DNA of 64,000 bases. Source: Cubamyces lactineus (lineage: Eukaryota > Basidiomycota > Agaricomycetes > Polyporales > Polyporaceae). The notes under the pieces are model-generated. The model searched no databases and was not told where the DNA came from. It worked only from the letters and a program-made list of their open reading frames with translations. Position numbers and translations under genes: made by a program. The stretch's first letter is position 1. Every line of letters begins with the position of its first letter. Positions 11,101 through 48,496 of the stretch are shown here, one piece after another. The stretch covers positions 1 to 64,000 of the forward strand of contig JACDTU010000003.1 in the NCBI GenBank assembly GCA_022376465.1. The letters run 5' to 3'.

Positions 11101-12461
11101 TCAGGTCTGGGGGGAGGATTACAATGAAACCTTCTCGCCTGTTGCGCGTTTTGAGTCGATTCATTACCTCCTCGCGCATGCTGTGCTTGAGGACTGGGAC
11201 ATCGAGTCAATGGATGTCAAAACTGCATTCTTGAACGGCGACTTGGAGGAGGAGATCTACATGGAACAGCCTGAGGGCTGGGTTGTTCCTGGCAAGGAAA
11301 ACTTCATGTGTCTGTTGCTGAAAGCTATCTACGGCTTGAAGCAGGCATCTCATCAATGGAACGCCATGATACACCAAATCTTGCTAGATCTGGGATTCAT
11401 ATGGACATACTCTGATGCCGGAGTCTACGTATATCGGCGTCATAGGGGGGATTCCGTCACGATCATCGTTCTGTATGTCGACAATCTACTTCTCATGGGT
11501 GACAAGCCTGGCCATATCAAGGCTACCAAGGAGGCCTTGATGCAGCGGTTCAAGATGACGGATCTGGGTCCTGTCTCGCGTTTTCTTGGTCTGAACATTG
11601 TTCGCGATCGTAAAGCTCAAACGATCAACATCGACCAGATAGACTACATCCAGTCCGTTCTCGAACGTTTCGACATGGCTGACTGCAAGCCGGCGCACAC
11701 TCCCCTCCCTGCTGGTGCTGTACTGGATCCCTGCTGGTGCTGTACTGGAGAAATCTAGTCACACCGCCGCCGATCACTCCCGGAAACGGTACCAGAGCCT
11801 AATTGGCAGTCTGCTCTATGCGACTTTGGGTACACGTCCGGATATCTCCTTCGCGGTCCAGAAGTTGTCTCAGTACAACTCTAATCCTAGTGACGCACAC
11901 TGGAACTATGCCAAGTATGTTCTGCGGTACCTGCAAGGGACCAAAGACTACCGGTTGCGTTACTTCGGTTCCTCGAATGACGGTCTTTTGGGTTATTCAG
12001 ACTCGGACTGGGCTGAGGACCGGGATGACCGCAGGTCCACTGGAGCTTACGTCTTCTTAATGGCAGGCGGCGCTATTTCCTGGCAGTCTAGGAAACAGCC
12101 GACTGTTTCGCTCTCCTCGACCGAGGCGGAATACAAGGCTGCGTCAGACGCTTGTCGTCAAGTTGTATGGCTTCGCACGTTTGGTGAAGAGTTGGGGGAC
12201 GACATCTCTCGTCCTACACCTTTGTGTCTCGACAACCAAGGGTCCATCTTCTTATCAGTTAATCCCGTCACCGAGCGTCGCACGAAGCACGTCGACGTCC
12301 AGTACCACTACACTCGCGAACAAGCTGAGTTAGGGACGATCGACATCTTCTACGTAGCGACAGAGGATCAACTAGCTGATTCCTTGACGAAGAACGTCTC
12401 CTTCTCTATATTGGAGCGCTTCAGAAAGGCGATTGGTCTAGTCTCTCCCTCCGCAGTTTGA
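8174..12461 (+). pseudogene. gag-pol: Copia gag-pol polyprotein, frameshifted and RT-mutant
   Basis: The frame opens at ATG 8174. In order it contains a copia Gag, a CCHC knuckle (CDFCGSQTHHESTC), a Lys-rich stretch, protease (WLMDSGASQH), integrase with the HHCC region and DDE residues (HTDLDG, RSDRGGEY, QQNGRAERWNR), a Pro-rich linker, and RT (ARLVAKGF, MDVKTAFLNGDL, YGLKQA). The RT catalytic box reads YVDN; the second Asp of YVDD is Asn (AAT at 11483-11485). A 22 bp tandem duplication at 11706-11749 then shifts the frame, giving a stop at 11756-11758. RNase H continues in another frame to TGA 12461 with the usual SSTEAEY and ADSLTK motifs. Confidence 0.93.
11706..11749 (+). repeat. 22 bp tandem duplication that frameshifts copia pol
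   Basis: A 22 bp unit starting TCCCTGCTGG occurs twice back to back, at 11706-11727 and 11728-11749. Because 22 is not a multiple of three, it separates RT from RNase H. Removing one unit would join the two frames at the usual HTPLPAG position. Confidence 0.93.
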
Positions 12462-12463
12462 AC

Positions 12464-12472
12464 GAGTGGGAG
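12464..12472 (+). promoter_or_regulatory. Copia polypurine tract
   Basis: GAGTGGGAG lies immediately upstream of the right LTR, in the position expected for the plus-strand primer of reverse transcription. Confidence 0.7.
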
Positions 12473-13005
12473 TGTTGAACTTCCAGGTTATCGGCTGTGC
12501 CGGACCGGGAATGTGGACCTTGTGGCTGTGGCGCCTACAACGCGCACAGCATGGACTTTATTCCTTTTATGGACTACTCAGTGTACGTACTGTAGTTGAA
12601 CATTCTTTCATTCCCTCCATCTTTCCGTTGCGTTCTACACTGCTACGGATTCTTCCAGAGGGTTCTATACCTATGACACCATATGTCGCGATACTCGCAC
12701 CATGGTCTTACTCATCGTACATAGGTATCACATGCCTCCTTTCTTTGCTTACTCATGGCACTCCTCTCTCAGTATATAAGGAGGACATTCTTCGCCCCTG
12801 CTCTTCAGTCGTTCGCTCACAGACTGAAGAGTAAGTTCCCTTATTACCTATGGTTTATATGCAGTTACTTACTGAGTACTTGTAGCTTCTTTGTGTCGCT
12901 TACAGGTACTTATACTATGCAATATAGTCGTTCGCTCACAGACTGAAGACTTCTTTGTGTCGCTTACAGGTCGCTCCCAGCCTTTCCAGGTTCAGAAGTT
13001 CGTCA
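12473..13005 (+). repeat. Right LTR of the copia element (533 bp)
   Basis: Colinear with 6669-7201, with no differences noticed by eye. It is followed by the target duplication GTTCT (13006-13010). Confidence 0.92.
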
Positions 13006-13010
13006 GTTCT

Positions 13011-16077: not shown

Positions 16078-16770
16078 TGTTAGGACCGTGCCGTCCGGGG
16101 GTACAACTCCGGTGGTCGGGACTTGGACGGAGTTCGGGGTCGGAGTACGACCGGAGGTCGGACTAGCACTGGGGTGAGGACTTTCGCGAAACTATTAGTA
16201 ACGCACGGGTTCCGACTCGGTGTCCTCTATTTGCGGACTTCGGAGTACGGACTTGACGGGACGAAGGTCGGACTTGGGAACGGGGTTGGGTTGAAGGGGT
16301 TGGTAGGAAGGGAACGAAGGTTGGTCGGACTAGAGGGTCGGGGTTGAGTGTCGGACTACGAGTTGAACCAGTAATGGGTATAACGAGATTTCCGAACTGA
16401 GTAGCTACTACATTCCGGGGCAGTATTTATACTAAGTCAGAAACCCGATAGAAACAATAAGAGATGTACGTGATAGGAAGGAGTAGAACGAAAGTACGAA
16501 GTAACTTGCCAAGGGTAAGATAACGTAGATAGCTCAGTAAGCAAAAGCCTCATGTAGGTAGCGCCATGAGGGGTTATCTGAGACATGTAAGTCATGGGGT
16601 CGGGGGAAGTCCGAAGTACGGAGTACGAAGTGCGGAGTACGGAGAACGGAGTCGGGGGTACGGGGTACGGAAGAGCGGAGTACGGAGGAACGGAGTACGT
16701 AACGCGGAGTAAGGAGCGGGGTACGGGGGTTCGGGGATCGGGCTTCGGGGTTACAGCACGGAGCGTAACA
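16078..16770 (-). repeat. 3' LTR of copy B (693 bp)
   Basis: Starts TGTTA and ends TAACA on the plus strand, and is the same length as the copy C LTRs. It directly abuts the split host gene on the left and the polypurine tract on the right. Confidence 0.93.
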
Positions 16771-16783
16771 GTGCCTCCCCCCT
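16771..16783 (-). promoter_or_regulatory. Polypurine tract of copy B
   Basis: On the minus strand this reads AGGGGGGAGGCAC directly before the 3' LTR. The same sequence lies beside the 3' LTRs of C (39668 onward) and D (38455 onward). Confidence 0.75.
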
Positions 16784-16907
16784 AGGCCCGAACCCTTGAG
16801 GGCCTATAGTGAAGGGAAATGGAAGTCTGTCCAAAAAAGGTAATCCGATAAGTCCAGGGAACGGAGATCAAGAATCGGGGCAGGGTCAGAATCGATGAAG
16901 AAAGGTG

Positions 16908-16915
16908 TATATAAG
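16908..16915 (+). promoter_or_regulatory. TATA box of the antisense Zn2Cys6 gene (copy B)
   Basis: TATATAAG lies 70 bp upstream of the ATG at 16978, outside the LTR. It is conserved at the same spacing in copy C and in D (38592-38599). The antisense gene therefore seems to have its own promoter. Confidence 0.7.
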
Positions 16916-16977
16916 ACGGGGGTGAGACTTAGCCAGTTCGTCCTCGCTCTTTGTCTCCCACCACCACCACCAGCACT

Positions 16978-18371
16978 ATGTCCTCAACCCTCGACAACAT
17001 TCAGGCTTTGGAGGCGCACCTTGCGCAGCTCCGGATGAAGGCAGCGGCGGAGGAGGCCGCAGCAGCCGAAGCGTAAGTACCGGGGTTGCCGGGGTTGCGG
17101 AGTACGGAGTTCGGGCTAACGGTGGTTTACAGGGCGCGAAAAGCGGAGGAGGAGCGAGCACGGGAGGAGAAAGAGCGCGCGGAGTACGAGGCCGCGCAGA
17201 AGGCAGCAGCGCTGATCCGCCAGGCTGCCCTCGCGAAGGCCGGGGCTTCCGCGCGGGGAAGCAAGCGTCCCGCGGAGGACGAGGAGCCGGAGTCGGAGGA
17301 GGAAGAGGACGACGCGGAGTTGCTCGTCCTGCGGTAAGTCCGGTCGGGGTACGGAGTACGGGGGTCGGACTAACGGAGTTCCACAGGACGAGGTGCGACC
17401 GGTGCGCCGCGAAGCAAATCGCGTGCCGGTTCCGCGCGGGCAAACGGACGTCGAGTTGCGTCCAATGCCAGAAAGCTCGGTCGCGCGCGTGCGTCGGGGC
17501 CCGCGGACTTCCCGCGGACATCCAAGCCCGGATCGCGCGCAAGGAGGAGGCCCCAAGCCCGCAGCGCAAGAAGGTCAAGTCCGCCCCCATCGTCGTCGAC
17601 GACGACGGGTTTGAGACCCCCGCGCCCACCGGAGTTCGGAGTTCAGAGAAGGTGCGGGCGGAGAAGGGCAAGGGGAAGGAGAAGGAGAAGGAGAAGACGG
17701 TGGAGAAGGCGGCGGAGAAGCCGCTGCAGCCAGGTGAGGTCCGATGGACCTTTGTCGCGCCACCCGGAATTAACCCCCCAGCACGAACAGTCGTCGCCCG
17801 AGGCCCGAGCATCGCAGGCTCGTCGACGGGCCCTCGGATGTCCGCCAGCTCCGGACTTCCGGAGGTTGGGAAGTCCGACCTCCGGTGGTCCGACGACCCG
17901 GAGAAGCTCTCCGACCGGGAGCTCCTCGAGCACCTGCTCGTCGCGGTGCAGCGCAACCGGCGCACCGCGGGGCGGGTCATCGACCTGCTGGTCGACGAGG
18001 AGGAGCAGCGGGAGGAGATGATGCGGGAGGAGGTCCGGGGTCTTGGCGATGCCATCGCCAAGATCGTGCGGAAGGAGTTGAAGGCCGTCATCGGCGAGGC
18101 CGTCCGCGAGGCGGTGAAGTCCGAACTCGCGACGGAGTTCGGGACTATGCTGCGGGAGATCCTTGAGATCACCTCGCAGGACAAGGAGGACGCGATCGCG
18201 GACGCGCTGGAGCGGGCGGGGGTTGCTGGGTCGGACTGGGAGGAGGAGAATGGGTCGGGGTTGGACAAGTCCGCGCGGGGCAAGTCCAGTGAGGAGGAGG
18301 AGGAGCAGGGCGAGGGCGCGAAGGAGGGGAAGGGGCCGGAGGACCCGGCGGACATGGACATGGCGGAGTAG
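16978..18371 (+). CDS. Antisense retrotransposon gene: Zn(II)2Cys6 coiled-coil protein
   Basis: Three exons (16978-17072, 17133-17333, 17387-18371) join in frame to 426 codons; both introns are GT-AG with CTAAC branch sites. Residues 1-80 are an Ala/Glu/Arg-rich predicted coiled coil, followed by an acidic stretch. Exon 3 opens with Cys residues spaced CX2CX6CX10CX2CX7C, which fits the fungal Zn2Cys6 binuclear cluster known from Gal4-type DNA-binding factors. A Lys/Glu-rich basic segment, a long helical region (LLEHLLVAVQRNRR onward) and an acidic tail ending MDMAE follow. It lies head-on to pol, 107 bp from the pol stop, between pol and the 3' LTR. This is the only uninterrupted copy in the window. 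Binding to the CGG-rich U3 is my inference. Confidence 0.82.
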
Positions 18372-18478
18372 GGCGGTAGTACGGACTTCGGACCTCGGAC
18401 TTCGTAGCTAGTATCTTGTAGTCCGAGTGCGGAGGAGTATAGAAAGAAATCTGCTGGTGAGAACTCCGCGTGTGAACT

Positions 18479-21400
18479 TCAAGACAATTTAGCAAGAGGT
18501 CCGGGCTTGTCCGGGTAAGCTGCGTGGAAGTCCGAAACTAGCTCCTGGGCATGTCCGAGCTCCGTGGCCAAGATCCACGAAGTTTCTTCGTCCGTACCTT
18601 CGTAGCCTGCCCATCGGACTAGGTACAGGAGTTGACAACTCCGACGCCGGCGGTCAATCTTGGAGTCGAGGATCTCCGAAATCTCGTACTCCGGTTCTCC
18701 GTCCACCAGGATCGGAGGTGGCGGAGTTTGGACGCGGCCGGGGATGGTGTTCGGAGTTGCAGGCTCGAGTTGTGAGACATGGAAAACGGGGTGTACCGCG
18801 CGCATAGAGTCCGGTAGTCGGAGGGTGAAGGAGTGAGTTCCGACCTGCGCGATGATAGTGAACGGACCTAAGAACTTCTCGGACAACTTTTTGGAGGGAC
18901 GAGTAGTCCGGATGTGCTGAGCTCGGACATAGACCTGATCTCCGACCTTGAAGTCCGGCGCGGGTAGACGGTGTTTGTCCGCCTGTACTTGGTACCGGGC
19001 CTGGGCTTCGGCGATCTGCTGTCGGAGTTGGGTGTGAAGTTCGTCGAGGTCGACAGCGTAGTCGCGAGCTCGAGCGGAGGTGAGGTCCCGCTCGGGGTAG
19101 ACGGAGATGGCGGGGTTGTAGCCCTTGTTCGCGAAGAACGGGGATATACCGGTAGTTGCGGACGGAGCATTGTTGTACGCGAACTCCGCCAAGGGAAGGA
19201 GTTGGGACCAGTTGTCCTGCTGGTAGTTCGAATAGATCCGGAGGTACTGCTCGAGGGTCTGGTTAACCCGCTCGGTTTGACCGTCGCCTTCCGGGTGGTA
19301 ACCGGAGGTGAAGTGAAGGCGCATGTCGAGGGCCTTACCGAGGGAGCGGAAGAAGTGAGAGACGAACTCCGAGCCCCGGTCGGAGGTAACGTGCGAGGGA
19401 ACTCCGTGCTTGGAGAACACATGGAGTACGAACAAGTCCGCTAACTCCGAGGCTGTAAGCGTGTCGTGGGTAGGGATGAATATACCTTGCTTAGTGAGCC
19501 TGTCGACTACCACCAAGATCACGGTGTAGCCAGCGGAGTTCGGGAGTTGCTCGATGAGGTCCATGGAGATGGAGTTCCAGGGTCGCTCGGGGATCGGGAG
19601 TTGCTTCAAAGTACCGTAGGGGAGATGCCGGGGGACTTTAGCTCGCGCACAGGTAGTACAGGACTTACAATAGTCCCGGACGAAGAGTCGAAGTCCGGGC
19701 CAGGCGTAGTCCCGCAGGACCAGGGCTTGCGTCTTGTTCTGTCCCCAGTGTCCGGCAGTAGGGTGGTCGTGACAAGCTCGGAGTACGCGAAGGCGGAGGT
19801 CGCCGGAGTTCGGGACATAGACTCGACCTGAGAGTCGGAGTAGCCCGTCTTCATCGCGGGACCATCGGGAGTTACCTTCGGAGGCGAGCTTGAGTGCAGC
19901 AGATAGTTCGGGGTCAGGAGTCGGGGTTGCTTGAGCGGACTTGATGTCCGAGAGGAGTTGTTCGGAGTCGAGGACGAAGGAAGCTCGGAGTACGGGGGGT
20001 CGGAGGTAGGTAGCCCAGAGGGACGCGGCGAGCTGCTCCTGGGTGAAAACCGGTCGGTAGTTGTGTGGGTTGACGACGGAGTAGTCACTGCCCCCCTCTT
20101 TTGGGTAGACGTCCCAACGGCGTGTCAGTGCGTCGGGCTTCGCTCCAAGCTTACCTGGCCGGAACCGGACTACGAGGTTGAACTGCGAGAGGAACTCCGA
20201 CCATCGGGCTTGACGGCGGGTCAGTAACTTCGTAGTCGCGAAGTATACCAAATTCTTGTGGTCCGTGACAACGTCGATCGGGGTTGCCGAACCTTCGAGG
20301 TAGTGCCGCCAGGTCTTGAAACATTCGAAGATCGCGAGGAGTTCCTTGTCGTGGGTGTCGTAGTTCAACTCCGCGCCGGTCAAGGTGCGGGAGTGGAAGG
20401 CAATGGGGTGGAGTTCACCGGACTCGGTGGTAAGGGAGAGAATGCCGGCGATGGCGTAGTCCGAGGCGTCAGTCTCGACGGTGAGGGGTCGGTCGGGCAT
20501 CCAGTGGTGTAGTACCGGAGCTGTCGTGAACGCCTTCTTGAGAGCGTTAAACGAACTCCGACATTCCTCGGAGAAGTGCCAAGGCACGGACTTGCGGGTT
20601 AAACGGGTCAGCGGTAGTACGATCTCGGAGTAGTTTGGAATAAACCGTCGATAGAAGTTCGCGAACCCCAGGAACGACTGTATGTCGCGGACCTTCCGGG
20701 GTTCGGGCCAATCCAAGATCGCCTTAACCTTCGACTCCGCCATGGTAAGTCCGGTGGGAGAGAGGATGTACCCGAGGTACTCGACGGAGTCAGTGTGGAA
20801 CTCGCACTTGTCAGCGCGGGCATAAAGCCGGTGCTTGCGGAGTCGCCGGAGTACCTCTTTGACGTGCTTGCGGTGTTGCTCGGGGTTGTCGGAGTAGATG
20901 AGGATGTCGTCCAGGTAGACGATGACGCACACATCGAGCATGTCCGCGAAGATGTCATTGACGAACCGCTGGAAAGCAGCGGGCGCGTTAGAAAGTCCGA
21001 ACGGCATGACTAACCATTCGAAAGACCCATAGCGGGTCCGAAACGCGGTCTTCCACTCATCTCCAGGAGCTATGCGGACTAGGTTGTAGGCGTGACGGAG
21101 GTCGATTTTGGTATAGATCCGGGCCTTCCGAGGCGCGTCCAGCAAGTCCGAGACGAGAGGAAGGGGGTAGCGGTCCTTCCGGGTGATCTTATTCAAGCCC
21201 CGGTAGTCCACGCAAAGGCGAAGAGATCCGTCCTTCTTTTTGACGAAGAGGACGGGAGCTCCGCAGGGAGAGTTGGACGGACGTATGAACCCCGATCGGA
21301 GGTTCTCGTCAATATACTCCCGAAGCGTGTCGAGCTCGAGTTTTGAGAGGGAGTAAATAGGTCCGAGTGGCGGAGTAGCCCCTTCTTCCAGGTCGATCTT

Positions 21401-22219
21401 TAAGTCGTAGGGGCGATGCTCCGGTAGGATGTCGGCCTTGGTCTTGCTGAAGACGTCCGCAAACTCGTGGTACTCCTCCGGAACTCCGGTGAGGTCCGGG
21501 GGAGAGTCGGAGATGGACGAACTCCGCGCAGTAGCCAAGTCCGGGGTAGACAGGTTCAGGGTATAGCTCGCGGACCCCGGGAGTTTGCAAGCCCGAGCGA
21601 AAGCAGCAGCGTTCACAAGGGAGATCCGGGGTACGGAGGTCGGAGTAGGAGAAGTCGGTAGTTCCGGAGTAGCCGGAGTAGACGGAGTAGACGGAGTAGA
21701 CGGAGTACGCTCAGCCGGAGCTGGCGGGGGTACCATGGTGTCAGAAACAGGACGCGGCGGGGGTGCGGAACGGAATTGGATGCTGCGCTTCTTCCAGTCA
21801 ATCAACGGATTGTAGGCGGAGAGCCAGCTGTATCCCAGAACGGCAGACACGGACTTGTCGAGCGGAGTAACATAGAAATCTATATTGAGGACTTCTCCAG
21901 ACGGGAAATGTACGGGCAGGGTGGTAAACGAAGTAATCAGGTGGTTAGAAGTACCGTCGAAAAGCTGTAGACGGAGCGGGGTTACGGCGGTAGTTGGGAG
22001 TTGATACATAGTCGCGAAATCGGAGTCGATGAAACAATGGGAGGAACCGGAGTCGATAAGGGCGCGGAACGGAGTTGGGATAGGATCGGAGTACAAGTCG
22101 AGGAAGAGTGCATGGGGGTCGGAAAGAGCGGACGCGTTGAGCCTGAGGATCTCCGTACCGGAGGAGTCAACGCGGTCCTCACGGGGTACGGAGTTCGGAG
22201 GACCGCAGACTAATTTTTT
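18479..22219 (-). CDS. pol: pol of copy B (protease, RT, RNase H, integrase, chromodomain)
   Basis: Entry is by -1 frameshift at 22213-22219. Domains in order: retropepsin ([11 protein letters not shown]); RT with [17 protein letters not shown] and YLDDILIYS; RNase H ([29 protein letters not shown]); integrase zinc finger ([20 protein letters not shown]); DDE core ([28 protein letters not shown]); and a C-terminal chromodomain ([27 protein letters not shown]). No internal stop was seen, so this Pol could be functional, but its gag is interrupted. The chromodomain is expected to direct integration to marked chromatin, as known for chromoviruses. Confidence 0.92.
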
Positions 22220-22762
22220 GTCTCCTTCGGGGCTGCAGCCGGAGCGGGCGCAGCGGGAGCGGGGTTGGCTTGAGCGGCGCGACCCTTAGTCGCGGACGAG
22301 GTCTTCTTCGGACAAGCACTCGCGGTATGACCAGCTCCACCGCAGAAGAGACAGAGATTGTTGGCGAAACGGCGTTGACGCTCCTCGGGGGTGAGTTTTC
22401 CGTCCTTACCGAGCTTGTCGGTGTACGTCTTGGCCGGGGTCTTCGGAGTCTTAGGAGACTTCGACGAAGTACCGGACTTGGACGGGGTAGACGAGGAGGC
22501 CTGTCCGGAGTTGTTACCTCCGGACTTGTTGCCGGAGTTGGAGGACTTGGAGTCGGAGGTCGACTTGTTACCGGACTTCGAAGGTCCGGACTCGCGCAAG
22601 ACCTCGGCCTTGCGCTCCCAGTAGCGGTTGTCGATCGACTGCGCGAGGTCGCGAAGGGCCACCAGGGTCTCGGGCTTGCCGACCTCGGAGATGCGGTCCT
22701 TGAGACGGTTCGGAAGTCCGTCGTAGAACCGGTACCGGAGCGGAGCATTACCCCAACGGACT

Positions 22763-28356: not shown

Positions 28357-29049
28357 TGTTAGGACCGTGCCGTCCGGGGGTACAACTCCGGTGGTCGGGA
28401 CTTGGACGGAGTTCGGGGTCGGAGTACGACCGGAGGTCGGACTAGCACTGGGGTGAGGACTTTCGCGAAACTATTAGTAACGCACGGGTTCCGACTCGGT
28501 GTCCTCTATTTGCGGACTTCGGAGTACGGACTTGACGGGACGAAGGTCGGACTTGGGAACGGGGTTGGGTTGAAGGGGTTGGTAGGAAGGGAACGAAGGT
28601 TGGTCGGACTAGAGGGTTGGGGTTGAGTGTCGGACTACGAGTTGAACCAGTAATGGGTATAACGAGATTTCCGAACTGAGTAGCTACTACATTCCGGGGC
28701 AGTATTTATACTAAGTCAGAAACCCGATAGAAACAATAAGAGATGTACGTGATAGGAAGGAGTAGAACGAAAGTACGAAGTAACTTGCCAAGGGTAAGAT
28801 AACGTAGATAGCTCAGTAAGCAAAAGCCTCATGTAGGTAGCGCCATGAGGGGTTATCTGAGACATGTAAGTCATGGGGTCGGGGGAAGTCCGAAGTACGG
28901 AGTACGAAGTGCGGAGTACGGAGAACGGAGTCGGGGGTACGGGGTACGGAAGAGCGGAGTACGGAGGAACGGAGTACGTAACGCGGAGTAAGGAGCGGGG
29001 TACGGGGGTTCGGGGATCGGGCTTCGGGGTTACAGCACGGAGCGTAACA
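28357..29049 (-). repeat. 5' LTR of copy B (693 bp)
   Basis: Starts TGTTA and ends TAACA. It is followed on the minus strand by the same 11 nt primer site as in copy C. The flanking duplication GCACC is at 29050-29054. Confidence 0.93.
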
Positions 29050-34892: not shown

Positions 34893-34916
34893 GTGACATA
34901 GATGGAGTATGCGTGT

Positions 34917-37739: not shown

Positions 37740-38454
37740 TGTTAGGACCGTGCCGTCCGGGGGTATAACTCCGGTGGTCGGGGCTTGGACGGAGTTCGGG
37801 GTCGGAGTACGACCGGAGGTCGGACTAGCACTGGGGTGAGGACTTTCGCGAAACTATTAGTAACGCACGGGTTCCGACTCGATGTCCTCTATTTACGGAC
37901 TACGGAGTACGGACTTGACGGGACGAAGGTCGGACTTGGGGACGGGGTTGGGTCGAAGGGGTTGGTAGCAAGGGAACGAAGGTTGGTCGGACTAGGGAGT
38001 CGGGGTTGAGTGTCGGAGTACGGACTAGAAGTCCAGTAAGACGAGTGTACAAGGTTAACGAGTATAACGAGATTTCCGAACTGAGTAGCTACTACATTCC
38101 GGGGCAGTATTTATACTAAGTCAGAAACCTGGTAGAAACAAAAGAGATGTACGTGATAGGAAAGAGGAGAACGAAAGTACGAAGTAACTTGCCAAGGGTA
38201 AGATAACGTAGATAGCTCAGTAAGCAAAAGCCTCATGTAGGTAGCGCCATGAGGGGTTATCTGAGACATGTAAGTCATGGGGTTGGGGGGAAGTCCGAAG
38301 TACGGAGTACGAAGTGCGGAGTACGGAGAACGGAGCCGGGGGTACGGGGTACGGAAGAGCGGAGTACGGGGAAGCGGAGTACGTAGTGCGGGGTAAGGAG
38401 CGGAGTACGGGGGTTCGGGGATCGGACTTTGGGGTTACAGCACGGAGCGTAACA
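37740..38454 (-). repeat. 3' LTR of copy D (715 bp)
   Basis: TGTTA...TAACA, of the same subtype as the copy A LTR. The polypurine tract follows at 38455 onward. Confidence 0.92.
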
Positions 38455-38974
38455 GTGCCTCCCCCCTAGGCCCGAACCCTTGAAGGCCTATAGTGAAGGG
38501 AAATGGAAGTCTGCCCAAAAAAGGTAATCCGATAAGTCCAGGGGACGGAGATCAAGAATCGGGGCAGGGTCAGAATCGATGAAGAAAGGTGTATATAAGA
38601 TGGGGGTGAGACTTAGCCAGTTCTTCCTCGCTCTCTCTCAGCTACCACCACCACCACCACCACTAATGTCTTCAACTCTCGACAACATCCAGGCTCTGGA
38701 GGCGCACCTCGCGCAACTCCGGATGAAGGCGGCGGCAGAGGAGGCCGCAGCAGCCGAGGCGTAAGTACCGAGGTTGTCGGAGTTCGGGGTACGGAGTTCG
38801 GACTAACGGTAGTATACAGGGTGCGAAGGGCGGAGGAAGAGCGAAAGCGGGAGGAGGAGCGAGCGCGGGAGGAGAAGGAGCGCGCGGAGTACGAGGCCAC
38901 GCAAAAAGCAGCGGCGTTGATTCGCCAGGCTGCCCTCGCGAAGGCCGGAACTTCCGCGCGGGGGAGCAAGCGTC

Positions 38975-39667
38975 TGTTAGGACCGTGCCGTCCGGGGGTA
39001 CAACTCCGGTGGTCGGGACTTGGACGGAGTTCGGGGTCGGAGTACGACCGGAGGTCGGACTAGCACTGGGGTGAGGACTTTCGCGAAACTATTAGTAACG
39101 CACGGGTTCCGACTCGGTGTCCTCTATTTGCGGACTTCGGAGTACGGACTTGACGGGACGAAGGTCGGACTTGGGAACGGGGTTGGGTTGAAGGGGTTGG
39201 TAGGAAGGGAACGAAGGTTGGTCAGACTAGAGGGTCGGGGTTGAGTGTCGGACTACGAGTTGAACCAGTAATGGGTATAACGAGATTTCCGAACTGAGTA
39301 GCTACTACATTCCGGGGCAGTATTTATACTAAGTCAGAAACCCGATAGAAACAATAAGAGATGTACGTGATAGGAAGGAGTAGAACGAAAGTACGAAGTA
39401 ACTTGCCAAGGGTAAGATAACGTAGATAGCTCAGTAAGCAAAAGCCTCATGTAGGTAGCGCCATGAGGGGTTATCTGAGACATGTAAGTCATGGGGTCGG
39501 GGGAAGTCCGAAGTACGGAGTACGAAGTGCGGAGTACGGAGAACGGAGTCGGGGGTACGGGGTACGGAAGAGCGGAGTACGGAGGAACGGAGTACGTAAC
39601 GCGGAGTAAGGAGCGGGGTACGGGGGTTCGGGGATCGGGCTTCGGGGTTACAGCACGGAGCGTAACA
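38975..39667 (-). repeat. 3' LTR of copy C (693 bp)
   Basis: TGTTA...TAACA, directly preceded by the target duplication GCGTC. The polypurine tract lies at 39668 onward on the minus strand. Confidence 0.94.
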
Positions 39668-39874
39668 GTGCCTCCCCCCTAGGCCCGAACCCTTGAGGGC
39701 CTATAGTGAAGGGAAATGGAAGTCTGTCCAAAAAAGGTAATCCGATAAGTCCAGGGAACGGAGATCAAGAATCGGGGCAGGGTCAGAATCGATGAAGAAA
39801 GGTGTATATAAGACGGGGGTGAGACTTAGCCAGTTCGTCCTCGCTCTTTGTCTCCCACCACCACCACCAGCACT

Positions 39875-41268
39875 ATGTCCTCAACCCTCGACAACATTCA
39901 GGCTTTGGAGGCGCACCTTGCGCAGCTCCGGATGAAGGCAGCGGCGGAGGAGGCCGCAGCAGCCAAAGCGTAAGTACCGGGGTTGCCGGGGTTGCGGAGT
40001 ACGGAGTTCGGGCTAACGGTGGTTTACAGGGCGCGAAAAGCGGAGGAGGAGCGAGCACGGGAGGAGAAAGAGCGCGCGGAGTACGAGGCCGCGCAGAAGG
40101 CAGCAGCGCTGATCCGCCAGGCTGCCCTCGCGAAGGCCGGGGCTTCCGCGCGGGGAAGCAAGCGTCCCGCGGAGGACGAGGAGCCGGAGTCGGAGGAGGA
40201 AGAGGACGACGCGGAGTTGCTCGTCCCGCGGTAAGTCCGGTCGGGGTACGGAGTACGGGGGTCGGACTAACGGAGTTCCACAGGACGAGGTGCGACCGGT
40301 GCGCCGCGAAGCAAATCGCGTGCCGGTTCCGCGCGGGCAAATGGACGTCGAGTTGCGTCCAATGCCAGAAAGCTCGGTCGCGCGCGTGCGTCGGGGCCCG
40401 CGGACTTCCCGCGGACATCCAAGCCCGGATCGCGCGCAAGGAGGAGGCCCCAAGCCCGCAGCGCAAGAAGGTCAAGTCCGCCCCCATCGTCGTCGACGAC
40501 GACGGGTTTGAGACCCCCGCGCCCACCGGAGTTCGGAGTTGAGAGAAGGTGCGGGCGGAGAAGGGCAAGGGGAAGGAGAAGGAGAAGGAGAAGACGGTGG
40601 AGAAGGCGGCGGAGAAGCCGCTGCAGCCAGGTGAGGTCCGATGGACCTTTGTCGCGCCACCCGGAATTAACCCCCCAGCACGAACAGTCGTCGCCCGAGG
40701 CCCGAGCATCGCAGGCTCGTCGACGGGCCCTCGGATGTCCGCCAGCTCCGGACTTCCGGAGGTTGGGAAGTCCGACCTCCGGTGGTCCGACGACCCGGAG
40801 AAGCTCTCCGACCGGGAGCTCCTCGAGCACCTGCTCGTCGCGGTGCAGCGCAACCGGCGCACCGCGGGGCGGGTCATCGACCTGCTGGTCGACGAGGAGG
40901 AGCAGCGGGAGGAGATGATGCGGGAGGAGGTCCGGGGTCTTGGCGATGCCATCGCCAAGATCGTGCGGAAGGAGTTGAAGGCCGTCATCGGCGAGGCCGT
41001 CCGCGAGGCGGTGAAGTCCGAACTCGCGACGGAGTTCGGGACTATGCTGCGGGAGATCCTTGAGATCACCTCGCAGGACAAGGAGGACGCGATCGCGGAC
41101 GCGCTGGAGCGGGCGGGGGTTGCTGGGTCGGACTGGGAGGAGGAGAATGGGTCGGGGTTGGACAAGTCCGCGCGGGGCAAGTCCGGTGAGGAGGAGGAGG
41201 AGCAGGGCGAGGGCGCGAAGGAGGGGAAGGGGCCGGAGGACCCGGCGGACATGGACATGGCGGAGTAG
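39875..41268 (+). pseudogene. Antisense Zn(II)2Cys6 gene of copy C, nonsense mutated
   Basis: Exons 39875-39969, 40030-40230 and 40284-41268 match copy B. A TCA-to-TGA change at 40540-40542 ends the frame at codon 186, after the zinc cluster and before the helical and acidic C-terminal half. A truncated product would keep the predicted DNA-binding part, so it could act as a competitor, but this is speculation. A Glu-to-Lys change is also seen at the end of exon 1. Confidence 0.82.
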
Positions 41269-41375
41269 GGCGGTAGTACGGACTTCGGACCTCGGACTTC
41301 GTAGCTAGTATCTTGTAGTCCGAGTGCGGAGGAGTATAGAAAGAAATCTGCTGGTGAGAACTCCGCGTGTGAACT

Positions 41376-44300
41376 TCAAGACAATTTAGCAAGAGGTCCG
41401 GGCTTGTCCGGGTAAGCTGCGTGGAAGTCCGAAACTAGCTCCTGGGCATGTCCGAGCTCCGTGGCCAAGATCCACGAAGTTTCTTCGTCTGTACCTTCGT
41501 AGCCTGCCCATCGGACTAGGTACAGGAGTTGACAACTCCGACGCCGGCGGTCAATCTTGGAGTCGAGGATCTCCGAAATCTCGTACTCCGGTTCTCCGTC
41601 CACCAGGATCGGAGGTGGCGGAGTTTGGACGCGGCCGGGGATGGTGTTCGGAGTTGCAGGCTCGAGTTGTGAGACATGGAAAACGGGGTGTACCGCGCGC
41701 ATAGAGTCCGGTAGTCGGAGGGTGAAGGAGTGAGTTCCGACCTGCGCGATGATAGTGAACGGACCTAAGAACTTCTCGGACAACTTTTTGGAGGGACGAG
41801 TAGTCCGGATGTGCTGAGCTCGGACATAGACCTGATCTCCGACCTTGAAGTCCGGCGCGGGTAGACGGTGTTTGTCCGCCTGTACTTGGTACCGGGCCTG
41901 GGCTTCGGCGATCTGCTGTCGGAGTTGGGTGTGAAGTTCGTCGAGGTCGACAGCGTAGTCGCGAGCTCGAGCGGAGGTGAGGTCCCGCTCGGGGTAGACG
42001 GAGATGGCGGGGTTGTAGCCCTTGTTCGCGAAGAACGGGGATATACCGGTAGTTGCGGACGGAGCATTGTTGTACGCGAACTCCGCCAAGGGAAGGAGTT
42101 GGGACCAGTTGTCCTGCTGGTAGTTCGAATAGATCCGGAGGTACTGCTCGAGGGTCTGGTTAACCCGCTCGGTTTGACCGTCGCCTTCCGGGTGGTAACC
42201 GGAGGTGAAGTGAAGGCGCATGTCGAGGGCCTTACCGAGGGAGCGGAAGAAGTGAGAGACGAACTCCGAGCCCCGGTCGGAGGTAACGTGCGAGGGAACT
42301 CCGTGCTTGGAGAACACATGGAGTACGAACAAGTCCGCTAACTCCGAGGCTGTAAGCGTGTCGTGGGTAGGGATGAATATACCTTGCTTAGTGAGCCTGT
42401 CGACTACCACCAAGATCGCGGTGTAGCCAGCGGAGTTCGGGAGTTGCTCGATGAGGTCCATGGAGATGGAGTTCCAGGGTCGCTCGGGGATCGGGAGTTG
42501 CTTCAAAGTACCGTAGGGGAGATGCCGGGGGACTTTAGCTCGCGCACAGGTAGTACAGGACTTACAATAGTCCCGGACGAAGAGTCGAAGTCCGGGCCAG
42601 GCGTAGTCCCGCAGGACCAGGGCTTGCGTCTTGTTCTGTCCCCAGTGTCCGGCAGTAGGGTGGTCGTGACAAGCTCGGAGTACGCGAAGGCGGAGGTCGC
42701 CGGAGTTCGGGACATAGACTCGACCTGAGAGTCGGAGTAGCCCGTCTTCATCGCGGGACCATCGGGAGTTACCTTCGGAGGCGAGCTTGAGTGCAGCAGA
42801 TAGTTCGGGGTCAGGAGTCGGGGTTGCTTGAGCGGACTTGATGTCCGAGAGGAGTTGTTCGGAGTCGAGGACGAAGGAAGCTCGGAGTACGGGGGGTCGG
42901 AGGTAGGTAGCCCAGAGGGACGCGGCGAGCTGCTCCTGGGTGAAAACCGGTCGGTAGTTGTGTGGGTTGACGACGGAGTAGTCACTGCCCCCCTCTTTTG
43001 GGTAGACGTCCCAACGGCGTGTCAGTGCGTCGGGCTTTGCTCCAAGCTTACCTGGCCGGAACCGGACTACGAGGTTGAACTGCGAGAGGAACTCCGACCA
43101 TCGGGCTTGACGGCGGGTCAGTAACTTCGTAGTCGCGAAGTATACCAAATTCTTGTGGTCCGTGACAACGTCGATCGGGGTTGCCGAACCTTCGAGGTAG
43201 TGCCGCCAGGTCTTGAAACATTCGAAGATCGCGAGGAGTTCCTTGTCGTGGGTGTCGTAGTTCAACTCCGCGCCGGTCAAGGTGCGGGAGTGGAAGGCAA
43301 TGGGGTGGAGTTCACCGGACTCGGTGGTAAGGGAGAGAATGCCGGCGATGGCGTAGTCCGAGGCGTCAGTCTCGACGGTGAGGGGTCGGTCGGGCATCCA
43401 GTGGTGTAGTACCGGAGCTGTCGTGAACGCCTTCTTGAGAGCGTTAAACGAACTCCGACATTCCTCGGAGAAGTGCCAAGGCACGGACTTGCGGGTTAAA
43501 CGGGTCAGCGGTAGTACGATCTCGGAGTAGTTTGGAATAAACCGTCGATAGAAGTTCGCGAACCCCAGGAACGACTGTATGTCGCGGACCTTCCGGGGTT
43601 CGGGCCAATCCAAGATCGCCTTAACCTTCGACTCCGCCATGGTAAGTCCGGTGGGAGAGAGGATGTACCCGAGGTACTCGACGGAGTCAGTGTGGAACTC
43701 GCACTTGTCAGCGCGGGCATAAAGCCGGTGCTTGCGGAGTCGCCGGAGTACCTCTTTGACGTGCTTGCGGTGTTGCTCGGGGTTGTCGGAGTAGATGAGG
43801 ATGTCGTCCAGGTAGACGATGACGCACACATCGAGCATGTCCGCGAAGATGTCATTGACGAACCGCTGGAAAGCAGCGGGCGCGTTAGAAAGTCCGAACG
43901 GCATGACTAACCATTCGAAAGACCCATAGCGGGTCCGAAACGCGGTCTTCCACTCATCTCCAGGAGCTATGCGGACTAGGTTGTAGGCGTGACGGAGGTC
44001 GATTTTGGTATAGATCCGGGCCTTCCGAGGCGCGTCCAGCAAGTCCGAGACGAGAGGAAGGGGGTAGCGGTCCTTCCGGGTGATCTTATTCAAGCCCCGG
44101 TAGTCCACGCAAAGGCGAAGAGATCCGTCCTTCTTTTTGACGAAGAGGACGGGAGCTCCGCAGGGAGAGTTGGACGGACGTATGAACCCCGATCGGAGGT
44201 TCTCGTCAATATACTCCCGAAGCGTGTCGAGCTCGAGTTTTGAGAGGGAGTAAATAGGTCCGAGTGGCGGAGTAGCCCCTTCTTCCAGGTCGATCTTTAA

Positions 44301-45107
44301 GTCGTAGGGGCGATGCTCCGGTAGGATGTCGGCCTTGGTCTTGCTGAAGACGTCCGCAAACTCGTGGTACTCCTCCGGAACTCCGGTGAGGTCCGGGGGA
44401 GAGTCGGAGATGGACGAACTCCGCGCAGTAGCCAAGTCCGGGGTAGACAGGTTCAGGGTATAGCTCGCGGACCCCGGGAGTTTGCAAGCCCGAGCGAAAG
44501 CAGCAGCGTTCACAAGGGAGATCCGGGGTACGGAGGTCGGAGTAGGAGAAGTCGGTAGTTCCGGAGTAGCCGGAGTAGACGGAGTAGACGGAGTACGCTC
44601 AGCCGGAGCTGGCGGGGGTACCATGGTGTCAGAAACAGGACGCGGCGGGGGTGCGGAACGGAATTGGATGCTGCGCTTCTTCCAGTCAATCAACGGATTG
44701 TAGGCGGAGAGCCAGCTGTATCCCAGAACGGCAGACACGGACTTGTCGAGCGGAGTAACATAGAAATCTATATTGAGGACTTCTCCAGACGGGAAATGTA
44801 TGGGCAGGGTGGTAAACGAAGTAATCAGGTGGTTAGAAGTACCGTCGAAAAGCTGTAGACGGAGCGGGGTTACGGCGGTAGTTGGGAGTTGATACATAGT
44901 CGCGAAATCGGAGTCGATGAAACAATGGGAGGAACCGGAGTCGATAAGGGCGCGGAACGGAGTTGGGATAGGATCGGAGTACAAGTCGAGGAAGAGTGCA
45001 TGGGGGTCGGAAAGAGCGGACGCGTTGAGCCTGAGGATCTCCGTACCGGAGGAGTCAACGCGGTCCTCACGGGGTACGGAGTTCGGAGGACCGCAGACTA
45101 ATTTTTT
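41376..45107 (-). CDS. pol: pol of copy C (complete)
   Basis: Entered by -1 slippage at 45101-45107 and open to the stop at 41376, about 1,240 codons. Domain order is as in copy B: retropepsin, RT ([18 protein letters not shown]), RNase H, HHCC zinc finger, DDE integrase and a C-terminal chromodomain. All catalytic motifs I recognise are intact. The stop lies 107 bp from the end of the convergent antisense gene, so 3' ends of the two transcripts may overlap. Confidence 0.93.
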   Translation of the reverse strand, partial: KKLVCGPPNSVPREDRVDSSGTEILRLNASALSDPHALFLDLYSDPIPTPFRALIDSGSSHCFIDSDFATMYQLPTTAVTPLRLQLFDGTSNHLITSFTTLPIHFPSGEVLNIDFYVTPLDKSVSAVLGYSWLSAYNPLIDWKKRSIQFRSAPPPRPVSDTMVPPPAPAERTPSTPSTPATPELPTSPTPTSVPRISLVNAAAFARACKLPGSASYTLNLSTPDLATARSSSISDSPPDLTGVPEEYHEFADVFSKTKADILPEHRPYDLKIDLEEGATPPLGPIYSLSKLELDTLREYIDENLRSGFIRPSNSPCGAPVLFVKKKDGSLRLCVDYRGLNKITRKDRYPLPLVSDLLDAPRKARIYTKIDLRHAYNLVRIAPGDEWKTAFRTRYGSFEWLVMPFGLSNAPAAFQRFVNDIFADMLDVCVIVYLDDILIYSDNPEQHRKHVKEVLRRLRKHRLYARADKCEFHTDSVEYLGYILSPTGLTMAESKVKAILDWPEPRKVRDIQSFLGFANFYRRFIPNYSEIVLPLTRLTRKSVPWHFSEECRSSFNALKKAFTTAPVLHHWMPDRPLTVETDASDYAIAGILSLTTESGELHPIAFHSRTLTGAELNYDTHDKELLAIFECFKTWRHYLEGSATPIDVVTDHKNLVYFATTKLLTRRQARWSEFLSQFNLVVRFRPGKLGAKPDALTRRWDVYPKEGGSDYSVVNPHNYRPVFTQEQLAASLWATYLRPPVLRASFVLDSEQLLSDIKSAQATPTPDPELSAALKLASEGNSRWSRDEDGLLRLSGRVYVPNSGDLRLRVLRACHDHPTAGHWGQNKTQALVLRDYAWPGLRLFVRDYCKSCTTCARAKVPRHLPYGTLKQLPIPERPWNSISMDLIEQLPNSAGYTAILVVVDRLTKQGIFIPTHDTLTASELADLFVLHVFSKHGVPSHVTSDRGSEFVSHFFRSLGKALDMRLHFTSGYHPEGDGQTERVNQTLEQYLRIYSNYQQDNWSQLLPLAEFAYNNAPSATTGISPFFANKGYNPAISVYPERDLTSARARDYAVDLDELHTQLRQQIAEAQARYQVQADKHRLPAPDFKVGDQVYVRAQHIRTTRPSKKLSEKFLGPFTIIAQVGTHSFTLRLPDSMRAVHPVFHVSQLEPATPNTIPGRVQTPPPPILVDGEPEYEISEILDSKIDRRRRSCQLLYLVRWAGYEGTDEETSWILATELGHAQELVSDFHAAYPDKPGPLAKLS

Positions 45108-46567
45108 GTCTCCTTCGGGGCTGCAGCCGGAGCGGGCGCAGCGGGAGCGGGGTTGGCTTGAGCGGCGCGACCCTTGGTCGCGGACGAGGTCTTCTTCGGA
45201 CAAGCACTCGCGGTATGACCAGCTCCACCGCAGAAGAGACAGAGATTGTTGGCGAAACGGCGTTGACGCTCCTCGGGGGTGAGTTTTCCGTCCTTACCGA
45301 GCTTGTCGGTGTACGTCTTGGCCGGGGTCTTCGGAGTCTTAGGAGACTTCGACGAAGTACCGGAATTGCCGGACTTGGACGGGGTAGACGAGGAGGCCTG
45401 TCCGGAGTTGTTACCTCCGGACTTGTTGCCGGAGTTGGAGGACTTGGAGTCGGAGGTCGACTTGTTACCGGACTTCGAAGGTCCGGACTCGCGCAAGACC
45501 TCGGCCTTGCGCTCCCAGTAGCGGTTGTCGATCGACTGCGCGAGGTCGCGAAGGGCCACCAGGGTCTCGGGCTTGCCGACCTCGGAGATGCGGTCCTTGA
45601 GACGGTTCGGAAGTCCGTCGTAGAACCGGTACCGGAGCGGAGCATTACCCCAACGGACTTGAGTAGCGAGGCGGGTGAACTGAGTGATGTACTTAGCTAT
45701 CCGCTGGTTGTCGCCCATCCGGAGGTTCATCAGCTCATGCTCCGCAGCTCCGGAGGCGTCGTAAGGACCGAAGTTCACTCGGAGTTCCTCCTGGAAGTGG
45801 TCGTAGGATGTAAGGAAGATGGGGGGGTTGTCCGAGTCGCCTTCGAGGAGGTAGGGCTCGAACCACTGTAGCGCGGTGCCCTTGAGGAAGGAGATGGCGT
45901 AGGTCACCTTCTTCTCATCGGAGTCGAAGGTTCGGGGTCGGGCCTTGAAGACAAGTTCCAACTGCGTGAAGAAAGACCGGAGTTTGTTGGGGTCGGACCC
46001 GTCGAACTGGTCCGGCTCGCGGACGTTGTGCCGCTCGTTGTTCGAAGGTTGGGTAACCGCCGGAGTTGGAGCGGTAGTACGTTCGAGGGTACGCGCGATG
46101 AGAGAGATCGCGGTCGCTAGTTGCGACTGAACCCGGTCTTCGGAGTCGGAGGAGTCCGAGCTTGAGCTAGTGTCGTCGTCTCCCGGCCCTTGTGGGTCGT
46201 TGTCCGGAGGGCCTGGCGGTCCTGGAGGGCCCGGCGGACCTGGAGGACTAGGCGGACCCGGAGGCCCGCGGCTCGGACCTGAAGGCTGACCCTCGGAGAA
46301 CGGGTTCCCCGGAGATGGCTCGCGGGGTACCTGCGAGGCAGTCGCGGTAGAGATGACCAGAGGCTGAGGCGGGTCACCTTCGTCGTCCCCATCGGAGGAC
46401 GCTTCGACGATTGTTCGAGCGAACTGCCCGCGGCGGCTCGGAGTAGCTTCTTCTTGCGTCGCTGAGTCGCCTCGGCGAGCTGTCCAGCCACTCCAGTTCT
46501 CGGCGGGGTCTTCTTGCTCTAGGGCGCGAGATTGCGTCTGAGTGCGGACTACGGTTCGAGTGGACAT
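45098..46567 (-). CDS. gag: gag of copy C (complete)
   Basis: A 489-residue Gag from the ATG at 46567, 31 bp inside the 5' LTR boundary. It has an acidic, Pro/Gly-rich N-terminus with a collagen-like PPGPPGPP run, and a capsid-like helical region (FFTQLELVFKARPRTF onward, ALQWFEPYL). A Ser/Gly/Asn/Lys-rich linker, a CCHC knuckle ([14 protein letters not shown]) and an Ala/Pro tail follow. It ends ETKN-stop, with the last codons forming the frameshift heptamer. Confidence 0.93.
   Translation of the reverse strand: MSTRTVVRTQTQSRALEQEDPAENWSGWTARRGDSATQEEATPSRRGQFARTIVEASSDGDDEGDPPQPLVISTATASQVPREPSPGNPFSEGQPSGPSRGPPGPPSPPGPPGPPGPPGPPDNDPQGPGDDDTSSSSDSSDSEDRVQSQLATAISLIARTLERTTAPTPAVTQPSNNERHNVREPDQFDGSDPNKLRSFFTQLELVFKARPRTFDSDEKKVTYAISFLKGTALQWFEPYLLEGDSDNPPIFLTSYDHFQEELRVNFGPYDASGAAEHELMNLRMGDNQRIAKYITQFTRLATQVRWGNAPLRYRFYDGLPNRLKDRISEVGKPETLVALRDLAQSIDNRYWERKAEVLRESGPSKSGNKSTSDSKSSNSGNKSGGNNSGQASSSTPSKSGNSGTSSKSPKTPKTPAKTYTDKLGKDGKLTPEERQRRFANNLCLFCGGAGHTASACPKKTSSATKGRAAQANPAPAAPAPAAAPKETKN
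45101..45107 (-). promoter_or_regulatory. -1 ribosomal frameshift site between gag and pol
   Basis: On the minus strand the last gag codons read ACA AAA AAT TAG. This contains A AAA AAT in the X XXY YYZ register. A -1 slip gives AAA AAA TTA and leads directly into the pol frame (KKLVCGPPN). The same heptamer is at 1679-1685 (A), 22213-22219 (B) and 52765-52771 (D). I did not verify a downstream pseudoknot. Confidence 0.8.
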
Positions 46568-46585
46568 ATTGAGTGAAACCCGGTG

Positions 46586-46596
46586 AGTTCGGAAAT
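46586..46596 (-). promoter_or_regulatory. Self-priming primer binding site of copy C
   Basis: Two bases inside the 5' LTR the minus strand reads ATTTCCGAACT. This is the exact complement of AGTTCGGAAAT at the predicted transcript start (46909-46919, minus strand). That matches the self-priming of Tf1/sushi elements, where the first 11 nt of the mRNA pair with the primer site. No tRNA 3'-end match (TGG start) is present. Confidence 0.75.
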
Positions 46597-46944
46597 ACTG
46601 TTAGGACCGTGCCGTCCGGGGGTACAACTCCGGTGGTCGGGACTTGGACGGAGTTCGGGGTCGGAGTACGACCGGAGGTCGGACTAGCACTGGGGTGAGG
46701 ACTTTCGCGAAACTATTAGTAACGCACGGGTTCCGACTCGGTGTCCTCTATTTGCGGACTTCGGAGTACGGACTTGACGGGACGAAGGTCGGACTTGGGA
46801 ACGGGGTTGGGTTGAAGGGGTTGGTAGGAAGGGAACGAAGGTTGGTCAGACTAGAGGGTCGGGGTTGAGTGTCGGACTACGAGTTGAACCAGTAATGGGT
46901 ATAACGAGATTTCCGAACTGAGTAGCTACTACATTCCGGGGCAG

Positions 46945-46952
46945 TATTTATA
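46945..46952 (-). promoter_or_regulatory. LTR TATA box
   Basis: TATAAATA on the minus strand, 33 nt upstream of AGTTCGGAAAT, the proposed transcript start. It is conserved in all LTRs of the family in the window. Confidence 0.7.
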
Positions 46953-47118
46953 CTAAGTCAGAAACCCGATAGAAACAATAAGAGATGTACGTGATAGGAA
47001 GGAGTAGAACGAAAGTACGAAGTAACTTGCCAAGGGTAAGATAACGTAGATAGCTCAGTAAGCAAAAGCCTCATGTAGGTAGCGCCATGAGGGGTTATCT
47101 GAGACATGTAAGTCATGG

Positions 47119-47286
47119 GGTCGGGGGAAGTCCGAAGTACGGAGTACGAAGTGCGGAGTACGGAGAACGGAGTCGGGGGTACGGGGTACGGAAGAGCGGA
47201 GTACGGAGGAACGGAGTACGTAACGCGGAGTAAGGAGCGGGGTACGGGGGTTCGGGGATCGGGCTTCGGGGTTACAGCACGGAGCG
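47119..47286 (-). promoter_or_regulatory. CGG-triplet array in U3
   Basis: About 170 bp of U3 consists of variants of CGGAGTA in direct repeat (CGGAGTACGGAGAACGGAG and similar), placing CGG triplets every 7-8 bp. CGG triplets are the half-site of Zn2Cys6 factors, and this element family encodes such a protein. The array is present in every LTR of the family here, with small differences between the 693 and 715 bp subtypes. Confidence 0.6.
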
Positions 47287-48496
47287 TAACAGCGTCCCGC
47301 GGAGGACGACGAACTGGAGTCGGAGGAGGAAGAGGACGATGCGGAGTTGTTGGTCCCGCGGTAAGTCCGGTCGGGGTACGGAGTGCGGGGTTCAGGCTAA
47401 CGGAGTTCCACAGGACGAAGTGCGACCGGTGCGCGGCGAAACAGATCGCGTGCCGGTTCTGCGCGGGGAAGAGGACGTCGAGCTGCGTCCAGTGCCAGAA
47501 GGCCCGGTCGCGCGCGTGCGTCGGGGCTCGCGGACTTCCCGCGGACATCCAAGCCCGAATCGCGCGCAAGGAGGAGGCCCCAAGCCCGCAGCGCAAGAAG
47601 GTCAAGTCCGCCGCCATCGTTGTTGACGACGACGGGTTCGAGACCCCCGCGCCCACCGGAGTACGGAGTTCGGAGAAGGTGCGGGCGGACAAGGGCAAGG
47701 GAAAGGAGAAGGAGAAGGAGAAGACGGCGGAGAAGCCGCTGCATCCAGGTGAGGTCCGATGGACGTTCGTAGCACCGCCCGGGATTAACCCACCAGCACG
47801 CACGGTCGTAGCCCGAGGCCCGAGTCTTGCGGGCTCGTCGACGGGCCCCCGGATGTCTGCGAGCTCCGGACTTCCGGAGGTTGGGAAGTCCGACCTCTGG
47901 TGGTCCGACGACCTGGAGAAGCTCTCCGACCGGGAGCTCCTCGAGCACCTGCTCGTCGCGGTGCAGCGCAACCGGCGCACCGCGGGGCGGGTCATCGACC
48001 TGCTGGTCGACGAGGAGGAGCAGCGGGAGGAGATGATGCGGGAGGAGGTCCGGGGTCTTGGCGACGCCATCGCCAAGATCGTGCGGAAGGAGCTGAAATC
48101 CGCCATCGGCGAGGCCGTCCGCGACGTGGTCAAGTCCGAACTCGCGACGGAGTTCGGCACTATGCTGCGGGAGATCCTGGAGATCACCTCGCAGGACAAG
48201 GAGGACGCGATCGCGGATGCGCTGGAGCGGGCGGGCGTGGCTGGGTCGGACTGGGAGGAGGAGGAGAGTGGGACGGGGTTGGCGGACAAGTCCGCGCGGG
48301 GCAAGTCCGGTGAGGTGGAGGAGGAGCAGGGCGAGGGCGCGAAGGAGGGAAAGGGGCCGGAGGACCCGGCGGACATGGACATGGCGGAGTAGGGCGGAGT
48401 ACGGACTACGGACCTCGGACATCGTAGGTAGCAATTTGTAGTCCGAGTGCGGAGTAGTATAGAGAAATCTGTTGGTGAGAACTCCGCGTGTGTATC

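Follow-up and report, generated by a model that had tools for sequence, protein, structure and literature searches.

A Tf1/sushi-type chromovirus of the fungus Cubamyces lactineus carries, on the strand opposite its genomic RNA, a selected and apparently spliced gene for what is probably a Zn2Cys6 protein, and the same element is densely studded with the short word CGGRSTW. The open spliced frame, the purifying selection on it, the six conserved cysteines and the excess of the word were obtained by direct computation. From these we infer a Zn2Cys6 fold, binding of the word by the protein and, as the outcome, activation or relief from silencing. Our main reading, to which we assign a probability of about one half, is that the element encodes its own Zn2Cys6-type regulator, which would bind the CGGRSTW sites of its own family and keep those copies active or protected from silencing.

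The window, meaning the whole stretch of 64,000 nucleotides analysed, contains three copies of the element (B, C and D) with the following features.

16078-29049, gag and pol on the minus strand: copy B, with 693-bp LTRs (TG..CA) and the 5-bp target duplication GCACC
16078..16770, minus strand: 3' LTR of copy B (TG..CA, 693 bp), in which 22 CGGRSTW sites were counted
16596..16770, no strand: array of 10 CGG-motif matches within 175 bp at the U3 (outer) end of the LTR; both the sense TATA and the antisense gene lie downstream of it
16771..16977, plus strand: leader and putative promoter of the antisense gene, with a conserved TATATAA at about 16908-16914
16978..17072, plus strand: exon 1, coiled-coil-like N-terminus
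17073..17132, plus strand: predicted intron 1, 5 motif sites in 60 bp
17133..17333, plus strand: exon 2, acidic stretch
17334..17386, plus strand: predicted intron 2, 5 motif sites in 53 bp
17387..18371, plus strand: exon 3, six-cysteine stretch (from 17394), basic stretch, conserved long helix and acidic tail
18479..22285, minus strand: pol of copy B, with protease, RT, RNase H, integrase, SH3_Tf2-1 and chromodomain; 67 motif sites
28357..29049, minus strand: 5' LTR of copy B
37740..38974, no strand: 3' LTR and initial antisense-gene part of copy D, severed by copy C
38975..47291, minus strand: copy C, complete from LTR to LTR, including gag and pol; 153 motif sites; duplication GCGTC; sits in copy D
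46586..46596, minus strand: ATTTCCGAACT, site of self-primer binding in copy C, with its complement in the LTR 33 nt past the TATA box
47292..48392, plus strand: remaining antisense gene of copy D (rest of exon 2, intron 2 and exon 3)

The pol product matched the Pfam families RVP, RVT_1, RNase H, H2C2, rve, SH3_Tf2-1 and Chromo, with gag separate. The chromodomain follows the integrase, and the order gag, protease, RT, RNase H, integrase is that of a Tf1/sushi-type chromovirus. The primer site ATTTCCGAACT is an 11-nt exact complement located 2 nt from the 5' LTR end, with its partner at LTR position 373 and TATAAA at 340, and we take this self-complementarity of primer and LTR to be the self-priming layout of Tf1/sushi elements. 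An earlier note on this DNA had placed the element among the Tf1/sushi chromoviruses; judged by its self-primer and its chromodomain-bearing pol it belongs there, with self-priming onto the predicted transcript start.

In the nest at window positions 37740-53680, copy C sits within the antisense gene of copy D, and the gag and pol of copy C overlap in different frames at 45098-45293, ORF coordinates that are consistent with -1 frameshifting. The gag of copy B is split by a 4.65-kb insertion (22762-27411) that begins with CACTAG, has ACGGACT at its flanks and contains long inverted repeats (23431-25007 and 25145-26721) whose arms are 100% complementary. The window also holds a copia element (6669-13006), with two identical 534-bp LTRs and GTTCT on both sides, which interrupts a chitin synthase gene (Chitin_synth_2 match, 6224-7027), and a LINE at 30903-37109 with endonuclease, RT and RNase H plus an upstream ORF.

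A search of the genome (36.3 Mb, 43 contigs) returned at least 41 matches to the antisense-gene region, fragments among them, including 17 at 99-100% identity; these counts are lower bounds, and some matches may be duplicate contigs. A locus on contig 26 (L014), with the same C-in-D insertion place and the same TGA as window copy C, may be a duplicate or second haplotype of the window's nest. An alignment of 36 copies was assembled from B, C and 34 of the 40 fetched stretches (L009-L039, L041, L042 and L046), and the broken or partial matches L040, L043-L045, L047 and L048 were excluded.

The antisense gene is found between pol and the 3' LTR, is not part of the LTR itself and runs in the direction opposite to pol. 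As claimed in the earlier note, its three exons (16978-18371, plus strand) join in frame to give a protein of 426 aa with the pattern CX2CX6CX10CX2CX7C. The ATG, the TAG and GTATATAAGACG are kept in all 36 aligned copies, as is the TATA box that the note had assigned to the gene, and the splice sites are nearly invariant (intron 1, GT and AG each in 35/36; intron 2, both in 36/36). Intron lengths vary in the aligned copies from 45 to 61 and from 40 to 55 nt, regardless of frame. A potential third intron (17734-17781) is likewise frame-keeping, and this segment is absent from some gene models of homologues. Because the gene is antisense to the genomic RNA, its introns would, as proposed, survive retrotransposition. 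The gene had been described as present in all three copies of the window, but only B has it intact: C has a TGA at codon 184, the same stop as in L014, and copy C has inserted into exon 2 of the gene in D (duplication GCGTC). Since B and C are 99.8% identical, they add little independent evidence.

Zn2Cys6 proteins have the cysteine spacing CX2CX6CX5-12CX2CX6-8C. The six cysteines with their spacing were found in 31 of the 36 copies, the five misses being frameshifted, and five of the six were invariant in a 10-row alignment (the fourth was present in 9 rows), the rows having been picked to hold the stretch. The earlier note had spoken of a perfect zinc cluster and had pointed to the Pfam Zn_clus profile. 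The spacing does fit, but Zn_clus (PF00172) gave no match to the antisense protein at E<=10, and among its 38 matches across the genome, compared by eye, none fell at a copy of the gene. A profile search of PDB sequences with the antisense-protein family gave four matches at E<=10, none of them named Zn2Cys6. A structure model of the 61-residue cysteine stretch, predicted from 10 sequences, had a mean pLDDT of 72, and all nine of its Foldseek matches in the PDB at E<=10 were Zn2Cys6 domains, all weak (best E 0.41): Ppr1 (two chains), Gal4 (three), Leu3, Put3, Pho7 and Hap1, the last two of which are Zn2Cys6 proteins as well. The model of exon 3 (mean pLDDT 63.5, pTM 0.28) had Leu3 as its sole PDB match (E 6.1) and contained a 101-residue helix (176-276) with 9 of the 11 invariant columns. 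These models make a Zn2Cys6 fold of the cysteine stretch likely. The antisense protein resembles regulators of the Gal4/Ppr1/Leu3 type in its cysteine spacing and in the predicted fold of that stretch. It differs from them in lacking the Zn_clus match, in being encoded by a retrotransposon and in having the cysteines mid-protein, behind the coiled-coil-like N-terminus.

CGG is the half-site of Zn2Cys6 proteins, and the motif hunt began as a search for CGG half-sites. The word CGGRSTW, whose forms include CGGAGTA, CGGAGTT, CGGACTT and CGGGGTW, came from k-mer excess and from tables of CGG plus four nucleotides, and was defined after the excess was seen. Copy C has 153 sites in 8317 bp, or 18.4 per kb. 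Densities per kb were 30.3 in the LTR, 19.3 in the antisense-gene region of B, 17.6 in the pol of B and 10.9 in the gag of C, compared with 0.5 to 0.9 in three other stretches of the window and 0 to 1.3 at nine loci around five other chromovirus matches. The same CGG+4 words ranked on top in coding and non-coding parts of the element. In pol, 49 [AT]A[CG]TCCG sites were counted on both strands, against 8.8 ± 2.4 in 200 synonymous-codon shuffles that kept protein and codon usage (z 16.7), and the wider word A[CG][TC]CCG used all three codon phases (19, 38 and 20). ACTCCG was not in excess in the copia element, the LINE or one host frame; the copia element was slightly high for AGTCCG (5 versus 1.6, z 2.9). 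A soft EM search for motifs ended up capturing codon periodicity and was not used further.

The excess was kept in the 12 longest frames from diverged loci of the family, in pol or the antisense-gene region (z 4.7 to 12.3, lowest in the most diverged), and the motif density of 3' pol fell from 17.3 per kb in B to 5.8 and 6.6 in L042 and L048. Among copies, motif sites were not conserved significantly better than other synonymous sites (27% versus 32% variable, p 0.32), and the CpG subset gave p 0.038, uncorrected and one of six tests. No spacing between sites was dominant. Clusters of three sites numbered 948 genome-wide, compared with 8 for the reversed pattern. Among the first 100 cluster places (contigs 1 and 2), 95 lay in or beside known copies or LTRs and 5 were untraced; two isolated cluster places were LTR remnants, 92.6% and 85.5% identical. 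The word is therefore dense in its own family and rare elsewhere, as for VANC-like self-targeting.

The pols of four other chromovirus families of the same genome, 38 to 46% identical, showed no motif excess in the same shuffle test (z -1.6 to 1.1). In these families and a fifth partial match, no relative of the gene was found in the 2.5 to 3 kb after pol: the best E was 0.2 or worse with default filters, there was no six-cysteine pattern, and the control L024 scored 4e-148. With filters off, a few low-complexity matches reached E 1e-4. Whether related elements carry the gene, a point raised in the earlier note, thus has a divided answer, as these four families are without it but homologues occur in Trametes and Cubamyces. 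The link between gene and motif is a correlation, one family with both versus four with neither.

Since this link is correlational and the binding is predicted, the motif may instead be read by a host factor, or reflect some other process, while the antisense protein acts elsewhere, for example in nuclear entry or in RNA or Gag binding. The strand bias of TACTCCG, nearly all of which lies on the sense strand (34:1, with AACTCCG at 20:13), points the same way and is not predicted by an orientation-free site. However, the other four chromovirus families of the same host show no excess, and CGG is the expected target of a Zn2Cys6 protein. Both orientations of the motif are enriched in pol, so that a signal in RNA only fits poorly. 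We regard this explanation as unlikely.

If the element does encode its own regulator, as we prefer, the antisense gene would give a retrotransposon-specific DNA-binding protein of the Zn2Cys6 type, transcribed from a TATA promoter of its own, opposite in strand to the genomic RNA. The protein would recognise CGGRSTW half-sites, at about 18 per kb across the element, and in this way single out copies of its own family. It would maintain activity at both the LTR promoter and its own, probably by counteracting CpG methylation or silencing chromatin, as plant VANC proteins do. Transitions at CpG among pol copies reached 4.8%, compared with 1.8% at other C/G positions, an excess that hints at methylation of element copies. 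At 0-fold sites of pol (19 copies versus B, 18479-20900), CpG positions differed about 10 times as often as non-CpG positions (0.0475 versus 0.0049). More tentatively, and with less than even confidence, the antisense protein and its roughly 150 cognate sites may form a complete self-recognition system, in which sites in LTRs, introns and, via synonymous choice, gag and pol allow the protein to coat the copies and de-silence its own family while the host genome is left alone.

The gene and motif evidence is shared by a protein that binds the motif but represses, holding down how much its own family is transcribed or how many copies it has, or recruiting heterochromatin. Repression could explain why sites are missing where binding might be harmful. 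The antisense leader (16771-16977) had no motif site in any of the 11 copies examined, the longest site-free run of copy C (335 bp, 39649-39984) covers the antisense leader and exon 1, and the LTR core promoter is site-free for 255 bp, although site-free runs of 246 and 262 bp are present in other parts too. However, the 17 matches at 99 to 100% identity and the nearly or fully identical LTR pairs indicate recent spread, and the antisense protein carries an acidic tail. Such tails are more usual in activators. Repression is accordingly a quite improbable outcome in our judgment.

The selection on the protein suggested in the earlier note was confirmed. The spliced frame was fully open in 23 of the 36 aligned copies, had one internal stop in 6 and was shifted in 7; it was open in 15 of 17 near-identical copies and 8 of 19 diverged ones. 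For the antisense gene, dN/dS was 0.07 to 0.16 in 16/16 pairs among 12 chosen copies, with a Fisher p of about 1e-16 or smaller in the five pairs tested, for which the share of synonymous sites is approximate. The 3' part of pol, used as a yardstick in 19 copies versus B, gave 0.04 to 0.20. In 12 diverged frame-keeping copies (8 fully open and 4 with one internal stop), all 14 distinct exon indels were multiples of three, compared with 5 of 29 indels in the LTR, leader, introns and 3' flank. These results indicate purifying selection on the antisense gene with a constraint like that of pol. For copies L024-L046 compared with B, synonymous divergence of the antisense gene exceeded that of the 3' part of pol 2- to 4-fold, and 25-fold in L024 (0.177 versus 0.007), a difference that hints at recombination between subfamilies or at constraint on the synonymous sites of pol.

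Three search rounds, each scoring about 8000 best candidates, returned 7, 14 and 21 homologues of the antisense protein. Those with a name are annotated as hypothetical proteins and come from Trametes, T. sanguinea and T. cinnabarina among them, or from Cubamyces, and five are unnamed ENA entries; those in other species are 32 to 63% identical and are known from protein sequences alone. The short ENA proteins P0001, P0016 and P0019-P0021 were rejected as transcript evidence, as their starts resemble bacterial-style gene calls and they appear to come from genomic fragments. A scan of viral contigs for relatives gave nine pattern matches and no relative. The introns and predicted promoter of the gene are host-gene-like, and its absence from the other chromovirus families tested would also suit a captured host gene that rides along with no function for the element. 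Such a passenger is very improbable given the constraint comparable to that of pol, the pooled pair dN/dS values, the homologues in other species and the fact that none of the candidates scored was a host paralogue at E<=0.01.

On the minus strand, 500 codons are open right after the pol stop and in frame with pol (16976-18478) in B and C, and 512 in D, and the wobble positions of the plus- and minus-strand frames coincide. That this sense-strand frame, or the antisense RNA itself, is the true product and the plus-strand frame its by-product deserves almost no credence, and read-through of pol into it as the real protein is refuted: the minus-strand frame is broken in all eight diverged copies whose spliced plus-strand frame is fully open, so that it is itself probably a by-product of the antisense gene; dN/dS is lower in the plus- than in the minus-strand frame in 16/16 pairs; and exon indels preserve the plus-strand frame, whereas those in other parts do not.

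Among known systems, HTLV-1 HBZ is likewise an antisense retroelement gene for a nuclear regulator. HBZ is a bZIP protein with its promoter in the 3' LTR, and that element is not known to be studded with a self-motif. HBZ is mentioned in excerpts of PMC7264820 and PMC11963269. The earlier note knew of no Tf1/sushi element with a regulator of this kind. In a literature search by titles and abstract starts, with most subscription papers outside it, no description of a Zn2Cys6 gene inside an LTR retrotransposon was found, and "antisense" and "zinc" each occur 0 times in the fungal survey PMC3248453. However, antisense genes between pol and the 3' LTR have already been described, including brtn in the Boty-like retrotransposons of Botrytis cinerea (Zhao et al. 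2011, as cited in excerpts of PMC7264820, PMC8365987 and PMC4227169), so that what is new is the kind of protein encoded, the presence of introns and the motif. Like the present element, Boty is a fungal element with a CHROMO domain and an extra antisense gene between pol and the 3' LTR; for brtn, the same excerpts mention neither a zinc cluster nor introns nor a self-motif. In plants, Retand (TRP28) and Grande (gene23) also have antisense genes in this position, kept in most copies, with an own promoter and a nuclear product for gene23 and predicted DNA binding for TRP28 (excerpts of PMC11963269 and PMC7264820). Unlike the chromovirus studied here, they are non-chromovirus plant elements with other domains, and for Retand the passages of PMC11963269 report tandem repeats but not an element-wide cognate word.

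The antisense genes of LTR retrotransposons are described as having no known function (PMC7264820). The present element offers a candidate function, as it combines a selected protein that probably binds DNA with a densely repeated word that may be its target and that reaches coding sequence through synonymous choice. If the predicted binding is true, the role of such genes would become directly testable, and the element would be a case in which carrying binding sites has shaped a coding sequence. The likeness to VANC of the Arabidopsis VANDAL transposons is one of working principle only; there, a transposon-encoded protein counteracts silencing and a short word is dense in its own family and rare elsewhere (excerpts of PMC5735166 and PMC10398659). 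VANDAL is a DNA transposon and its protein is probably unrelated. Its words, according to the same excerpts, lie mainly in non-coding tandem repeats, whereas here they also run through gag and pol, and the binding of protein to word is here a prediction. Should that prediction hold, this chromovirus would stand as a counterpart, among fungal retroelements, of the VANC systems of plants.
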